From Scylla paramamosain (taxonomy: Eukaryota > Arthropoda > Malacostraca > Decapoda > Portunidae), in NCBI RefSeq assembly GCF_035594125.1, contig NC_087151.1, positions 20,563,253 to 20,627,252 on the forward strand: a stretch of 64,000 nt of DNA, read 5' to 3'. Positions 8,167 through 59,849 of the stretch are shown here, in pieces; the stretch's first letter is position 1, and each line of letters starts with the position of its first letter. A program made the position numbers and the translations under genes. Under the pieces are notes generated by a model that was not told the DNA's origin, searched no databases, and saw only the letters and a program-made list of their open reading frames with translations.

Positions 8167-8878
8167 ACGAAAACGCTAAAATGCACGTAAAACACCCTTT
8201 ATGGAGAAAAAAAAATTCATAAAAAATGTGTGTTTTTAGTGTGTTTTTTTTTTTAGGTACTAAAACGCCAAAATGCATGCAAAGCATGCATTATGGATAA
8301 TTAAATGACATTACCAGAAACGTGTCGTCTCCGTGTTTTTCAGAATATTAGGCAGCAAACCGCTAAGAATCATGAACACCATATATTAGAAAACTAAACA
8401 ACAATATCAGAATCTTGTCTTTTGAGTGTTATTGGACTTCTTACGTACCAAAACTCTAAGATACATGAAAAAATCCTTATTGAAGGAATAAAAGGACATT
8501 ACCAAAAACGTGTATTTTGAGTGTTTTTTGAGTTTATTAGGTAACAAAGCGCCATGGAAATATGGCAATTAGCCAATCTGGGGATCTTATGAATGTTTTT
8601 TAAGTTCTTTGGTGCTGAAATACTAAAAGATATGAATAATACTCAGTATTGGAAAAAAAAAAAAAATAAATAAATGAAAAATATGTCTATTATAAATGTG
8701 ATTCACCGTGTTACGTACCGAAACGCCAAAATGCATACAATGAACACCTAATGCAGAGGAACATGACAATATTTCCAAAAACTTCTTTTTTTTTTCACTT
8801 TGTTAGGTACAAAAACGCCAAAACACATGCAAAGTAGCCAATATAGGGAAACGAAACGACATAGTCACCAACCAGTAT

Positions 8879-8965
8879 AATTTATTTATTTTTTAACATT
8901 ATTTTATTTTATTTATTTATTTCTATTTATTTATTTATTTACTTTTATTAATTTATTTATTTTTG
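8879..8965. repeat. TTTA-type microsatellite
   Basis: TTTA/TTTTA units with a few interruptions. A complementary tract lies in the right arm at 59040-59126. Confidence 0.9.
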
Positions 8966-10616
8966 TTAAATATCGGAACGCTAAAACACAAAAATAGTCC
9001 TCTATATTGAGAAACAAAACAACATCAAGAAAAACATTCATTATGAATAATATTCACCATGTTAGTTACGAAATCTTCAAAATGCATGCAAAGAATCCTT
9101 TATTAAGAAACACATCCACATTACCAAACACCAGCATTATGACTGTTTTTTTAACTTGTTAGATACCAAAGCGCCAAAGCGCTTGCATAGCATATTATAT
9201 TGGAAAAGAAGACAACATTGTAAAAGAAGTGGTTTCTGAATTTTCTTCAGCTTTTACGTAGCAAAATGCTAAAAGGCATGAAGAATACCCCTCATGGAGA
9301 AACAGAATAGCTTCACAAGTAAACTATTTATTGAGTGTTTTTGAGCTTCTTATGTACCAAAACATATTACTAAAAGCGTGTATTATGAGTCTCATTGACG
9401 ATTTTAGGTACAAAAACGCCAAAATGTATACAAAAAACATTTTCTGGAGAAACAGATAATTTCCAATAATGTATGTTTTAAGTGTTTTATAGTTTGTTAG
9501 GTCCAAGAACGCAAAAACTCATGTAAAGTAACCAACATAATAAAACGAAACGATATAATCATAAACGGGCGTTATGAGTGTTTTTGTTTTTCTTAGATAT
9601 CAGGTAAACACGTAAATAATATTGAGAAAAAGTACAAGATTACCAAAAACGTGTATTATGAGACTTATTCACCATTTTAAATATCAAAACGCCAAAAGGC
9701 ATATAAAGATACTTATATGAAAAAAAAACACAACTATATTACCAAAATCTGTATTATAAATGTTTTCGAACTTCATAGGTATCAAAATGCCAAACTCCAT
9801 GCAAAGCACACCATACTGGAAAAGAAAACAACATTACCCAAAAACTTTTCTTGTGAGTGTTTTTCAATACGCTAAAACAGATGGAAAGTATTCTTAATGG
9901 AGAAAGAGAAGAACTTCATCAAAAAAGAGCATTTTGAGCTTGTTACTTACCAGAATATTAAAATGCATTTAAAGAATTCTATATAAAGAAACAGAATAGC
10001 ATTACCTCCCCCACCAAAAAAAAAAAAAAAATTGAACTTATTAGCTACCAAAAACATATGTTTTGACAGTTTTTCAGTCTATTAGGAACCATATTGGTTA
10101 AACGCATGCAAATCAACTAGTAAGGGAAAACTAAATAATATTACCGGAAACGTCTCTTATGAATGTTTTTAATGTTCATAGGTGGTGAAACGCTAAAACA
10201 AATTAATATTACTCTATACTGAGAAACAGAACATCACTACCTAAAACGACTGTCATGAGTCTGTTTCACCATGTTGGGTAACAAAACGCTAAAATTCATA
10301 AAAAGAAAGCAGAACACTTCCTAAAGCGTGTGTTTTAAGCGTTTTACTGTTTGATTGGTAACAAAAAGCCAAGACACGTGAAAAGTAGCCAGCATAGGAA
10401 AACGAAAAAATAATCATAAACGTGAATTATGAGTGTTTTTAATGTTCTAAGCTATCAGTACGCTAAAACACGTAAATAGTACTCTATATTGAGGAAGAGA
10501 ACATAACCGAAAACGTGTGTTATGAGCCTTATACACCATGTTAGGTACCAAAACGCCAAAATGCTTACCAAGAAAATCCATATGAAAAACCACAACCACA
10601 ATATCAAACACCTGTA

Positions 10617-10748
10617 TTATATATATATATATATATATATATATATATATATATATATATATATATATATATATATATATATATATATATATATATATAT
10701 ATATATATATATATATATATACTCGTATATATATATATATATATATAT
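10617..10748. repeat. (TA)n microsatellite, about 130 bp
   Basis: Nearly pure TA with one ctcg interruption near 10722. It follows accacaaccacaatatcaaa and cacctgtatta. The same flank borders the 490 bp (TA)n in the right arm, where the sequence beyond the tract has been lost. Confidence 0.97.
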
Positions 10749-56486: not shown

Positions 56487-56857
56487 AGAGGATGACCAAG
56501 ATTCAATAAAGAAAGCCAGATCACCAGTAGAGCGGCCTTGACGGAACCCAAACTGGCGATTAGATAGAAGTTTGTCAAGTGATATATGTTTAATAATCTT
56601 CCTGTTGAAGGTAGATTAAAAAACTTTAGATAGGTAGGAAATTAAAGCAATAGGACGGTAGTTTGAGGGATTAGAATGCCCACCATTTTTAGGAAAAGGC
56701 TGAATGTAGGTAAACTTCCAGCAAGAAGGAAAGATAGATATTGAGAGGCAGAGTTGAAAGAGTTTCACTAGGCAAGGTGCCAGCACAGAGACACGGTTTC
56801 GTAGAAGAAGAGGGACCCCATCATGTTCATAAGCCTTCCGAGGTTTTAGGCCATACA

Positions 56858-57523
56858 TATACATAATGTTAGGTATCAAAACGCCAAAATGCTTACCAAG
56901 AAAATCTATATGAAAAATCACAATCACAATATCAAACACCTGTATTATATATATATATATATATATATATATATATATATATATATATATATATATATAT
57001 ATATATATATATATATATATATATATATATATATATATATATATATATATATATATATATATATATATATATATATATATATATATATATATATATATAT
57101 ATATATATATATATATATATATATATATATATATATATATATATATATATATATATATATATATATATATATATATATATATATATATATATATATATAT
57201 ATATATATATATATATATATATATATATATATATATATATATATATATATATATATATATATATATATATATATATATATATATATATATATATATATAT
57301 ATATATATATATATATATATATATATATATATATATATATATATATATATATATATATATATATATATATATATATATATATATATATATATATATATAT
57401 ATATATATATATATATATATATATATATATATATAATACAGGTGTTTGATATTGTGGTTGTGATTTTTCATATGGATTTTCTTGGTAAGCATTTTGGCGT
57501 TTTGTTACCTAACATTATGTATA
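56858..57523. repeat. 666 bp palindrome with a (TA)n centre
   Basis: Satellite arms of about 90 bp (56858-56945 and 57436-57523) are inverted copies with about three mismatches. They surround a 490 bp pure TA tract. The outer arm continues the main palindrome (partner 10522-10616). The inner arm has no partner in the left arm. The structure sits exactly at the right-arm deletion breakpoint. Confidence 0.93.
56946..57435. repeat. (TA)n microsatellite, about 490 bp
   Basis: About 245 uninterrupted TA units. It is much longer than the 130 bp partner tract in the left arm. It gives spurious 186-codon YIYI frames on both strands. The true length is uncertain in any assembly. Confidence 0.97.
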
Positions 57524-59849
57524 AGGCTCATAATACACGTTTTTGGTTATGTTCTCTTCCTCAATATAGAGTACTATTTACGTGTTTTAGCGTTCTGATA
57601 GCTTAGAACATTAAAAACACTCATAATTCACGTTTATGATTATGTTTTCGTTTTCCTCTGCTGGCTACTTTTCATGTGTCTTGGCTTTTTCTTACCAATC
57701 AAACAGTAAAACGCTTAAAAGACACGCTTTAGGAAATGTTCTGCTTTCTTTTTATGAATTTTAGCGTTTTGTTACCCAACATGGTGAAACAGACTCATGA
57801 CAGTCGTTTTAGGTAGTGATGTTCTGTTTCTCAGTATAGAGTCATATTAATTTGTTTTAGCGTTTCACCACCTATGAACATTAAAAACATTCATAAGAGA
57901 CGTTTGCGGTAATATTATTTAGATTTCTCTTATTAGTTGATTTGCTTGTGTTTAACCATTATGGTTCCTAATAGACTGGTTCCTAATAGACTGGTGGGGG
58001 AGGTAATGCTATTCTGTTTCTTTATATAGGTTTCTTTAAATGCATTTTAATATTCTGGTAAGTAACAAGCTCAAAATACTCTTTTTTGATGAAGTTCTTC
58101 TCTTTCTCCATTAAGAATACTTTCCATCTGTTTTAGCGTATTGAAAAACACTCACAAGAAAAGTTTTTGGGAAATGTTGTTTTCTTTTCCAGTATGGTGT
58201 GCTTTGCATGGAGTTTGGCATTTAGATACCTAAGAAGTTCAAAAACATTTAAAATACAGAGTTTGGTAATATAGTTGTGTTTTTTCATATAAGTATTTTT
58301 TTTTATGCCTTTTGGCGTTTTGATATTTAAAATGGTGAATAAGTCTTATAAAACACGTTTTTGGTAATCTTGTGCTTTTCCTTAATATTATTTACGTTTT
58401 TACCTGATACCTAAGAAAAACAAAAACACTCATAACGCCCGTTTATGATTATATCGTTTCGTTTTGTTATGTTGGTTACTTTATATGAGTTTTTGCGTTC
58501 TTGGACTGATCAAACTATAAAACACTTAAAACATACATTATTGGAAATTATCTGTTTCTCCAGAAAATGTTTTTTGTATACATTTTGGCGTTTTTGTACC
58601 TAAAATAGTCAATGAGACTCATAATACACGCTTTTAGTAATATGTTTTGGTACATAAGAAGCTCTAAAACACTCAATAAACAGTTTATTTGTGAAGCTAT
58701 TCTGTTTCTCCATGAGGGGTATTCTTCATGCCTTTTAGCATTTTGCTATGTAAAAGCTGAAGAAATTTCAGAAACCGCTTTTTTTACAATGTTGTCTTCT
58801 TTTCCAATATAATATGCTTTGCAAGCGCTTTGGCGCTTTGGTATCTAACAAGTTAAAAAACAGTCATAATGCTGGTGTTTGTTAATGTGGTTGTGTTTCT
58901 TAATAAAGGATTCTTTGTATGCATTTTGAAAATTTCGTAACTAACATGGTGAATAATATTCATAATGAATGTTTTTCTTGATGTTGTTTTGTTTCTCAAT
59001 ATAGAGGACTATTTTCGTGTTTTAGCGTTCTGATATTTAACAAAAATAAATAAATTAATAAAAGTAAATAAATAAATAAATAAAAATAAATAAATAAAAT
59101 AAAATAATGTAAAAAAATAAATAAATTATACTGGTTGGTGACTATGTCGTTTCGTTTCCCTATATTGGCTACTTTGCATGTGTTTTGGCGTTTTTGTACC
59201 TAACAAAGTGAAAAAAAAACAAGTTTTTGGAAATATTGTCATGTTTCTCTCCATTAGGTGTTCATTGCATGCATTTTGGCGTTTCGATACGTAACAAGGT
59301 GAATCACATTTATAACAGATATATTTTTCCTTTATTTATTTATTTTTTTTCCAATACTGAGTATTATTCATATATTTTAGTATATCAGCACCAAAGAACT
59401 TTAAAAACATTCATAAGATCCCCAGATTGGCTAATTGCCATGTTACCATATTTCCATGGCGCTTTGCTACCTAATAAACTCAAAAAACACTCAAAATACA
59501 CGTTTTTGGTAATATCCTTTTGTTCCTTCAGTAAGGATGTTTTCATGTATCTTAGAGTTTTGGTACGTAAGAAGTCCAATAACACTCAAAAGACAAGATT
59601 CTGATATTGTTATTTAGTTTTCTAATATATAGTGTTCATGATTCTTAGCGGTTTGCTGCCTAATATTCTGAAAAACACGGAGACGACACGTTTCTGGTAA
59701 TGTCTCTGGTAGTTATCCATAATGCATGCTTTGCATGCATTTTGGCGTTTTATTACCAAAAAAAAAAAAAAAAAAACTAAAAACACACATTTTTGATGAA
59801 GTTCTTTTTCTCCATAAAGGGTGTTTTACGTGCATTTTAGCGTTTTCGT
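57436..59849 (+). repeat. Satellite array, plus orientation (outer right arm)
   Basis: Mirror of 8167-10616. Long higher-order type with variable spacing. The TAAA tract at 59040-59126 mirrors 8879-8965. Confidence 0.9.
59040..59126. repeat. TAAA-type microsatellite
   Basis: Complement of the left-arm TTTA tract, with similar interruptions. Confidence 0.9.

Follow-up and report, generated by a model that had tools for sequence, protein, structure and literature searches.

A giant satellite and LINE palindrome in Scylla paramamosain, formed by two copies of a duplicon that occurs at least five times on the contig and turning at a Penelope-like fragment

The window analyzed here is a 64,000-nucleotide stretch of the genome of the crab Scylla paramamosain (contig C1, positions 20563253-20627252 of a 1.21-Gb assembly with 234 contigs), located at 20.6 of 42.2 Mb along the contig. 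It contains a very large inverted repeat, in which satellite DNA and long interspersed nuclear elements (LINEs) are mirrored around a Penelope-like retroelement fragment. We confirmed that this inverted repeat is real in the assembly and runs past the end of the window. A comparison of about 324 kb around the window, including 260 kb of neighboring sequence in 26 tiles, showed that one satellite-plus-LINE duplicon is present there at least five times (P1 to P5) and that the two arms are a pair of these copies. All structures are known from the assembly sequence alone, and coordinates beyond the window are given in window numbering, with negative values lying before position 1. As to the origin of the palindrome, we lean, with some reserve, to the reading that its turn was made when the Penelope-like element broke internally and the broken end was linked, through microhomology, to an inverted duplicon copy lacking the Penelope.

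The arms were recovered by comparing the window with its own reverse strand, which shows the inverted repeat directly. This comparison gave 11 collinear inverted segments that pair the left arm (copy P2, 8167-34669, + strand) with the right arm (copy P3, 59849-36200, - strand) at coordinate sums of 68016 to 70869, in agreement with the first-pass annotation, which had matched the arms as reverse complements with the same drift. The arms measure 26.5 and 23.7 kb and are separated by a spacer of about 1.5 kb, and the window contains no N. Over 23,099 ungapped columns, the arms were 96.72% identical (758 mismatches, or 3.28%, plus 168 small gaps). The mismatch was fairly even along the arms, at 1.0 to 6.2% per 500-column window, and amounted to 3.39% in the satellite and 2.57 to 3.81% in the LINEs. 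In the inverted orientation, 11 high-scoring segment pairs of at least 400 bp and at least 90% identity covered 24,040 bp, whereas the direct orientation gave a single pair of 463 bp, and a reversed, uncomplemented arm gave none at the same thresholds. These results support the earlier description of a very large satellite-rich palindrome rather than a fold-back read.

The positions 8167 and 59849, which had been taken as the ends of the repeat, proved to be only the edges of indels. Pairing resumes beyond 8167, where window positions 4008-6048 match 71038-69001 at 95.3%. The left-side continuation of the inverted repeat occupies 3363-7503 (+ strand) and includes a further LINE (LINE D, 4423-6912). 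The partner of this continuation was seen outside the window, at 69001-71038, and the segments 3363-4126, 4008-6058, and 6738-7503 match the flank of P1. On the other side, the outer part of P3 (59850-64000, - strand) is present in P1 and P4 and lost from the left arm. Since P1, P3, and P4 all retain this outer stretch that is missing from P2, position 8167 is the edge of a deletion in the left arm.

Along the 324 kb, the copies follow one another in the order P1(-) P2(+) P3(-) P4(+) P5(-). P1 extends from about -124049 to -73001, P3 as a whole from 36109 to beyond 64000, P4 from 120886 to 162615, and P5, which is partly rearranged, from 162622 to beyond 194000. The outer part of P3 matches P4 at 120886-127771 and P1 at -82566 to -73001. 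The layout can be written as P1 core P2 | P3 core P4 | P5, in which the two cores are direct repeats of each other, with identities mostly of 91 to 97%, and P4|P5 forms a second giant palindrome. The palindrome of the window is therefore not a stand-alone one of the sex-chromosome type, since its arms belong to a duplicon family with at least five copies in alternating orientation.

The copies were nearly equally distant from one another. Pairwise mismatch among the five ranged from 2.90 to 4.06%, and that between P2 and P3 was 3.55%, against 2.98-4.06% in the six other pairs involving P2 or P3. The 13,533 columns common to all copies included 1,024 single-copy differences, 80 differences shared by exactly two copies, and 36 columns with three or more bases; the two-copy columns were distributed among P2+P3 (22), P3+P5 (16), P4+P5 (10), and the other seven pairs (3 to 7 each). 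In the maximum-likelihood tree, internal branches made up 2.47% of the length and the tips measured 0.018-0.019. P2 and P3 grouped on a branch of 0.0016 (approximate likelihood-ratio test 99.1, bootstrap 93), and P4 and P5 on one of 0.0007 (83/74). These results indicate that the copies arose close in time, or that all of them exchange sequence, and that the shared history of P2 and P3 was short at most. Because the copies are almost equidistant, arm-to-arm conversion is not maintaining the palindrome of the window. General arm-to-arm gene conversion was accordingly rejected, P2 and P3 being no closer than non-partner copies apart from the short branch that they share. The 22 derived columns of P2+P3 lie at 139.9-153.6 kb (P4 coordinates), with 8 of them within 143.8-144.7 kb, and thus a local conversion patch may contribute to this branch.

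The spacer (34670-36112, - strand) is a fragment of a Penelope-like element, with its 3' end at the left-arm side and a break inside the element at the right-arm side. Relative to a sibling copy (L003, one of several related loci designated L002 to L008), it has a 483-bp internal deletion. The reverse transcriptase (RT) domain RVT_1 was identified in the window copy (1.9e-07) and in the sibling copy (2.3e-07), and a GIY-YIG domain was borderline in the sibling copy (E 0.00018; 22.2 bits, with a cut-off of 22.6), the window fragment alone giving no match. We take the element to be a Penelope on the basis of RT plus GIY-YIG, RVT_1 in itself not being specific to Penelope, and this assignment of the spacer is the one that had been proposed from the first reading. 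A ribozyme in the spacer is not claimed, as the best Rfam score was at chance level (14.2 bits against a gathering score of 55).

The 3' terminus of the spacer is also found in L006, L007, and L008, on three other contigs, and the Penelope of L005 ends 10 bp short of it, in a TA tract. The terminus at the left arm is the natural end of the element, because L006, L007, and L008 end alike. It adjoins a 12-bp target sequence, AAAGAAAACATT (34658-34669, + strand), and the order of AAAGAAAACATT followed by the Penelope 3' end was seen in the left arm, L002, and L004; L003 aligns to the satellite/Penelope junction of the left arm. In P5, near 176170, an oppositely oriented Penelope 3' end is followed by AAAGAAAACATT. 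P1, P3, and P4 carry no Penelope at the target, and AAAGAAAACATT is followed there by ATCAAG. Taken together, the P2-type and P5 ends fit a single tail-out pair, whose two outer sides they would represent, with a target duplication of 12 bp. One half-site was seen in P2, L002, and L004 and the other in P5, and a copy with both Penelope halves around one target was not seen.

At the right-arm side, the interior of the Penelope is joined to P3 at a 4-bp microhomology, AAAC (36109-36112). L003 and L006 share about 32 bp more of the Penelope past 36112, and therefore the element was cut inside at this point. The adjoining 91 bp (36109-36199, - strand) are duplicon sequence that occurs in P3, P1, and P4 past the Penelope target and is absent from the left arm. 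As the Penelope is cut inside and P3 runs 91 bp past the target, P3 derives from a Penelope-free copy, and the turn lies inside the Penelope.

The Penelope relatives elsewhere in the assembly provide a view of how this family inserts. The window copy is 98.1% identical to L003 and L004 and 96.5-97.2% identical to L002 and L005 to L008. There were 74 Penelope hits, of which 62 retained the 3' end; 46 of these formed 23 neighboring pairs and 16 were unpaired. All 23 pairs were tail-out, with none tail-in or direct, in a count for which 40 of 208 candidates were scored and in which 11 of the 23 pairs are copies of one pair. From this pattern, we infer that the family inserts as head-to-head inverted pairs. 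The recurrent pair (query 1-942 and 1-557, with 10 bp between the halves) was found 11 times on contigs C1, C3, C12, and C20, and therefore larger blocks carrying it have likely spread between chromosomes. At L002, about 2.4 Mb away, the satellite is on the + strand on one side of the Penelope and on the - strand on the other, and the partner point differs from that of the window; this locus is a second turn at the same Penelope insertion, as read over 1.5 kb on each side. L003 (C1:20948370-20952749) and L004 (C1:20728893-20733272) are 219 kb apart and 99.92% identical over 3,758 bp, an identity far above that among the duplicon copies, and they represent either a very recent duplication or a false one.

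On our preferred account, a head-to-head Penelope pair would have inserted in P2, each such insertion being an inverted repeat prone to form a hairpin. The pair would then have broken near its center, with one half staying in place as the spacer, and the broken end would have been joined through the 4-bp microhomology to an inverted Penelope-free copy. That partner would itself have been broken within 91 bp of the same site and would most simply be an allele or a sister-like copy of P2; had P3 been copied from an allele of P2, a weak sister relationship of P2 and P3 would be expected. The assembly shows the copies, junctions, target, and pairing habit; that the pair broke, which copy served as partner, and in what order the steps took place are reconstructed from them. 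A broader proposal, which we put forward only tentatively, is that head-to-head Penelope pairs seed giant palindromes, in that their centers break, one half becomes the spacer, and the satellite block is mirrored repeatedly, so that a retroelement would drive growth of the array.

Several observations weigh against a break and rejoining within the Penelope. In the satellite adjoining the shared junction, the Penelope-bearing copies do not clearly resemble one another more than they resemble the others: over about 1.3 kb, L002 is 94.2% identical to P2, 93.7% to P3, and 93.8% to P4, and over 0.8-0.95 kb, L003 is 92.3% identical to P2 (where part of the Penelope is taken into the comparison), 93.9% to P3, and 93.1% to P4. 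These values fit a single inherited insertion no better than they fit gene conversion or repeated insertion. The same insertion is present in L003 and L004, with satellite on the - strand on both sides and no turn. P5 holds two separate Penelope pieces, and thus the pair itself has been rearranged; P5 also contains a run of 100 N (173784-173883) that looks like a scaffold gap. The microhomology of 4 bp is short, strict alternation of orientation was seen within P1 to P5, and no turn was found within the 6 kb read past P1. An error of the assembly, on which all of this is based, is possible. It is also possible that an earlier fold-back palindrome existed and later lost its center at the Penelope, and this sequence of events fits nearly as well.

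A simple fold-back, in which a single inverted duplication made one arm from the other before the Penelope inserted at the center, would account for the grouping of P2 and P3 as sisters and for their 22 shared derived columns, the most of any pair, and the fold-back-like scar of P4|P5 with its single-copy loop of 2.65 kb also speaks for it. We nevertheless consider it rather unlikely, because P2 and P3 have a common branch of 0.0016 when the tips measure 0.018-0.019, and because the same Penelope junction is present at three other loci and P3 continues for 91 bp past it; an insertion exactly at the finished center would then be a coincidence. An ordinary inversion, by recombination between inverted repeats that a direct-repeat satellite array already contained, would make the Penelope a passenger at the breakpoint and is in keeping with the satellite strand switches that recur across the region. 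We regard it as very unlikely, however, as the breakpoint lies inside the Penelope at a 4-bp microhomology and not in long shared homology, and two turns use the same Penelope insertion with different partners.

At the second turn, the sequence reaches position 162615 in P4 and resumes reversed from 159967, leaving a 2.65-kb single-copy loop. The join reads AAAACAAGTA-TGAAAG-TACTTGTTTT and can form a hairpin with a 10-bp stem, and six bases at the join are explained by the uninterrupted sequence of neither flank. This second turn with its own junction also bears on whether the palindrome is an artefact, in which two haplotypes or two array copies were joined head to head by the assembler. If the animal is highly heterozygous, alleles could differ by the 3-4% seen here, and the 99.92% identity of L003 and L004 over 3,758 bp at a distance of 219 kb could reflect false duplication. 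Against this stand at least five copies in both orientations at about equal distances, a window without N, and events private to each arm, such as a TA fold-back with a deletion and a self-copied insert of 99.57% identity. Joined haplotypes should give two copies that meet in sequence common to both, whereas the observed junction connects a Penelope-bearing to a Penelope-free copy inside the Penelope. We therefore judge an artefact improbable, and a haplotype join was rejected as the leading reading, as it does not easily explain a palindrome whose copies number at least five in both orientations. Runs of N with exact sizes, which may be gaps, were noted outside the window, 5,000 at 64001-69000 and 2,500 at 114001-116500.

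Large palindromes are best known from gene-bearing amplicons of sex chromosomes, and a large palindrome is also said, by the title of a 2011 report by Mendez-Lago, to occur in the pericentromere of the Y chromosome of Drosophila melanogaster, an arthropod. The ampliconic palindromes of ape sex chromosomes, as described in passages of a recent study, are defined by arms of more than 8 kb and a spacer of at most 500 kb, and have at least 98% arm identity, less than 80% repeat content, and a link to gene conversion (PMC11168930). The window resembles them in its long inverted repeats, short spacer, and recurrence along one region, and arms of 26.5 and 23.7 kb with a spacer of about 1.5 kb fall within those size limits (PMC11168930). 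In contrast to the ape palindromes, the window arms are 96.7% identical, satellite and LINEs account for about 90% of the left arm, and each arm is hardly more similar to its partner than to the remaining copies (PMC11168930). Inverted repeats of centromeres are described as substrates for gross rearrangement and isochromosome formation (PMC10813616); the present block likewise has inverted repeats in repeat DNA.

Human fold-back inverted duplications have, according to the passages available, microhomology of 2-8 bp at the turn and spacers of 766-70,466 bp (PMC3907307). The 4-bp microhomology of the window turn is similarly short, and the 2.65-kb single-copy loop of P4|P5 is within this spacer range, but the window spacer is half of a retroelement and not single-copy host DNA of the locus, and its arms come from copies with and without the Penelope insertion (PMC3907307). 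In Adineta vaga, endonuclease-containing Penelope-like elements consist of RT plus GIY-YIG with an optional tail extension, head-to-head inverted copies are the form most often observed, and target duplications are 8-10 bp (PMC3846280). The crab elements share the RT, the head-to-head copies, and a short target duplication, here of 12 bp, and the passages on A. vaga describe no link to giant palindromes (PMC3846280). In the main text of a decapod repeat survey, no word beginning with "palindrom" or "segmental" occurred (PMC10454600). Thus, large palindromes, centromeric inverted repeats, and head-to-head Penelope copies are each already known (PMC11168930, PMC10813616, PMC3846280), and in a literature search covering part of the literature, we recognized no description of Penelope pairs at the turns of palindromes. 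The present case is a block of satellite and LINEs that became at least two giant palindromes without arm-to-arm homogenization. With the junctions known exactly, the target empty in sibling copies, and two Penelope halves at hand, the order of events can be tested, and this evidence points to a retroelement that itself inserts as an inverted repeat.

Seven frames of the P1-P2 core were scanned, and a Pox_A32 packaging-type ATPase and an integrase with a chromodomain were above cut-off; among the other five, four matched nothing and one was below cut-off. We read the two cores as holding Polinton-like remnants, the domain matches coming from the P1-P2 core. Frames that resemble Polinton-like genes lie within this core (about -25900 to 2400, including window 1-2409), and a second copy, partial and diverged, occupies -12400 to -4398. 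No host gene was seen in the satellite and LINE block, for which no systematic search was made, a tRNA scan of the window found none, and Rfam gave nothing at gathering thresholds over the whole window.

The satellite repeats in units of about 94 bp, and a profile grown from one unit found 409 units over 34,201 of the 64,000 bases. It makes up 58% of the left arm and 57% of the right arm, and lies on the + strand in the left arm and on the - strand in the right arm except in a nested inversion in each. Of the 26,503 bp of the left arm, 15,376 bp are satellite and 8,591 bp are in three LINE blocks, about 90% repeat in all. The three satellite-free blocks of each arm are LINE copies related in sequence. 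LINE A (11811-14549, + strand in the left arm) has its partner at about 55243-56853, and LINE B (16673-19368, - strand) at about 50443-53126. LINE C (29028-32183, + strand) and its partner (38588-41799, - strand; 95.3-95.7% identity) both contain Exo_endo_phos (AP-endonuclease) and RVT_1 domains. LINE A is 81.9% identical to the right-arm copy of LINE C over 1,565 bp, and LINE B is 87.9% identical to LINE C over 961 bp. Among the 120 listed of 705 relatives of the LINE C RT, eight were named, five from the isopod Armadillidium vulgare and three generic, which makes a crustacean source likely from the sequence itself. The satellite strand map places the nested inversion at 21407-23740 (- strand) in the left arm and at 47049-48443 (+ strand) in the right. 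The first-pass annotation had given each arm three LINEs and a nested inversion, and all of these blocks are present in both arms, with the qualification that LINE A of the right arm lacks its 5' part.

The nested inversion of the left arm is interrupted by a private 692-bp insert (22018-22709, + strand) that is 99.57% identical to 14542-15233 of the same arm and is likely a recent local copy. The stretches of about 220 bp flanking it differ by about 6% and were not called a target duplication. The right arm alone carries a small palindrome (56858-57523) composed of a perfect (TA)245 tract at 56946-57435 between 88-bp inverted flanks (96.6%). It replaces about 2.1 kb, the deletion taking the partner of 10749-12934. 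A second TA fold-back lies at -72692 to -71930, where the sequences on either side of a 198-bp TA tract at -72410 are inverted copies of each other over at least 200 bp (99%). Such fold-backs were found at 2 of 34 TA tracts; 28 others gave no match, and in the remaining 4 the matches were short or poor and did not lie at the edge of the tract. Together, the hairpin at P4|P5 and the two TA fold-backs suggest that this satellite block is generally prone to template switching.

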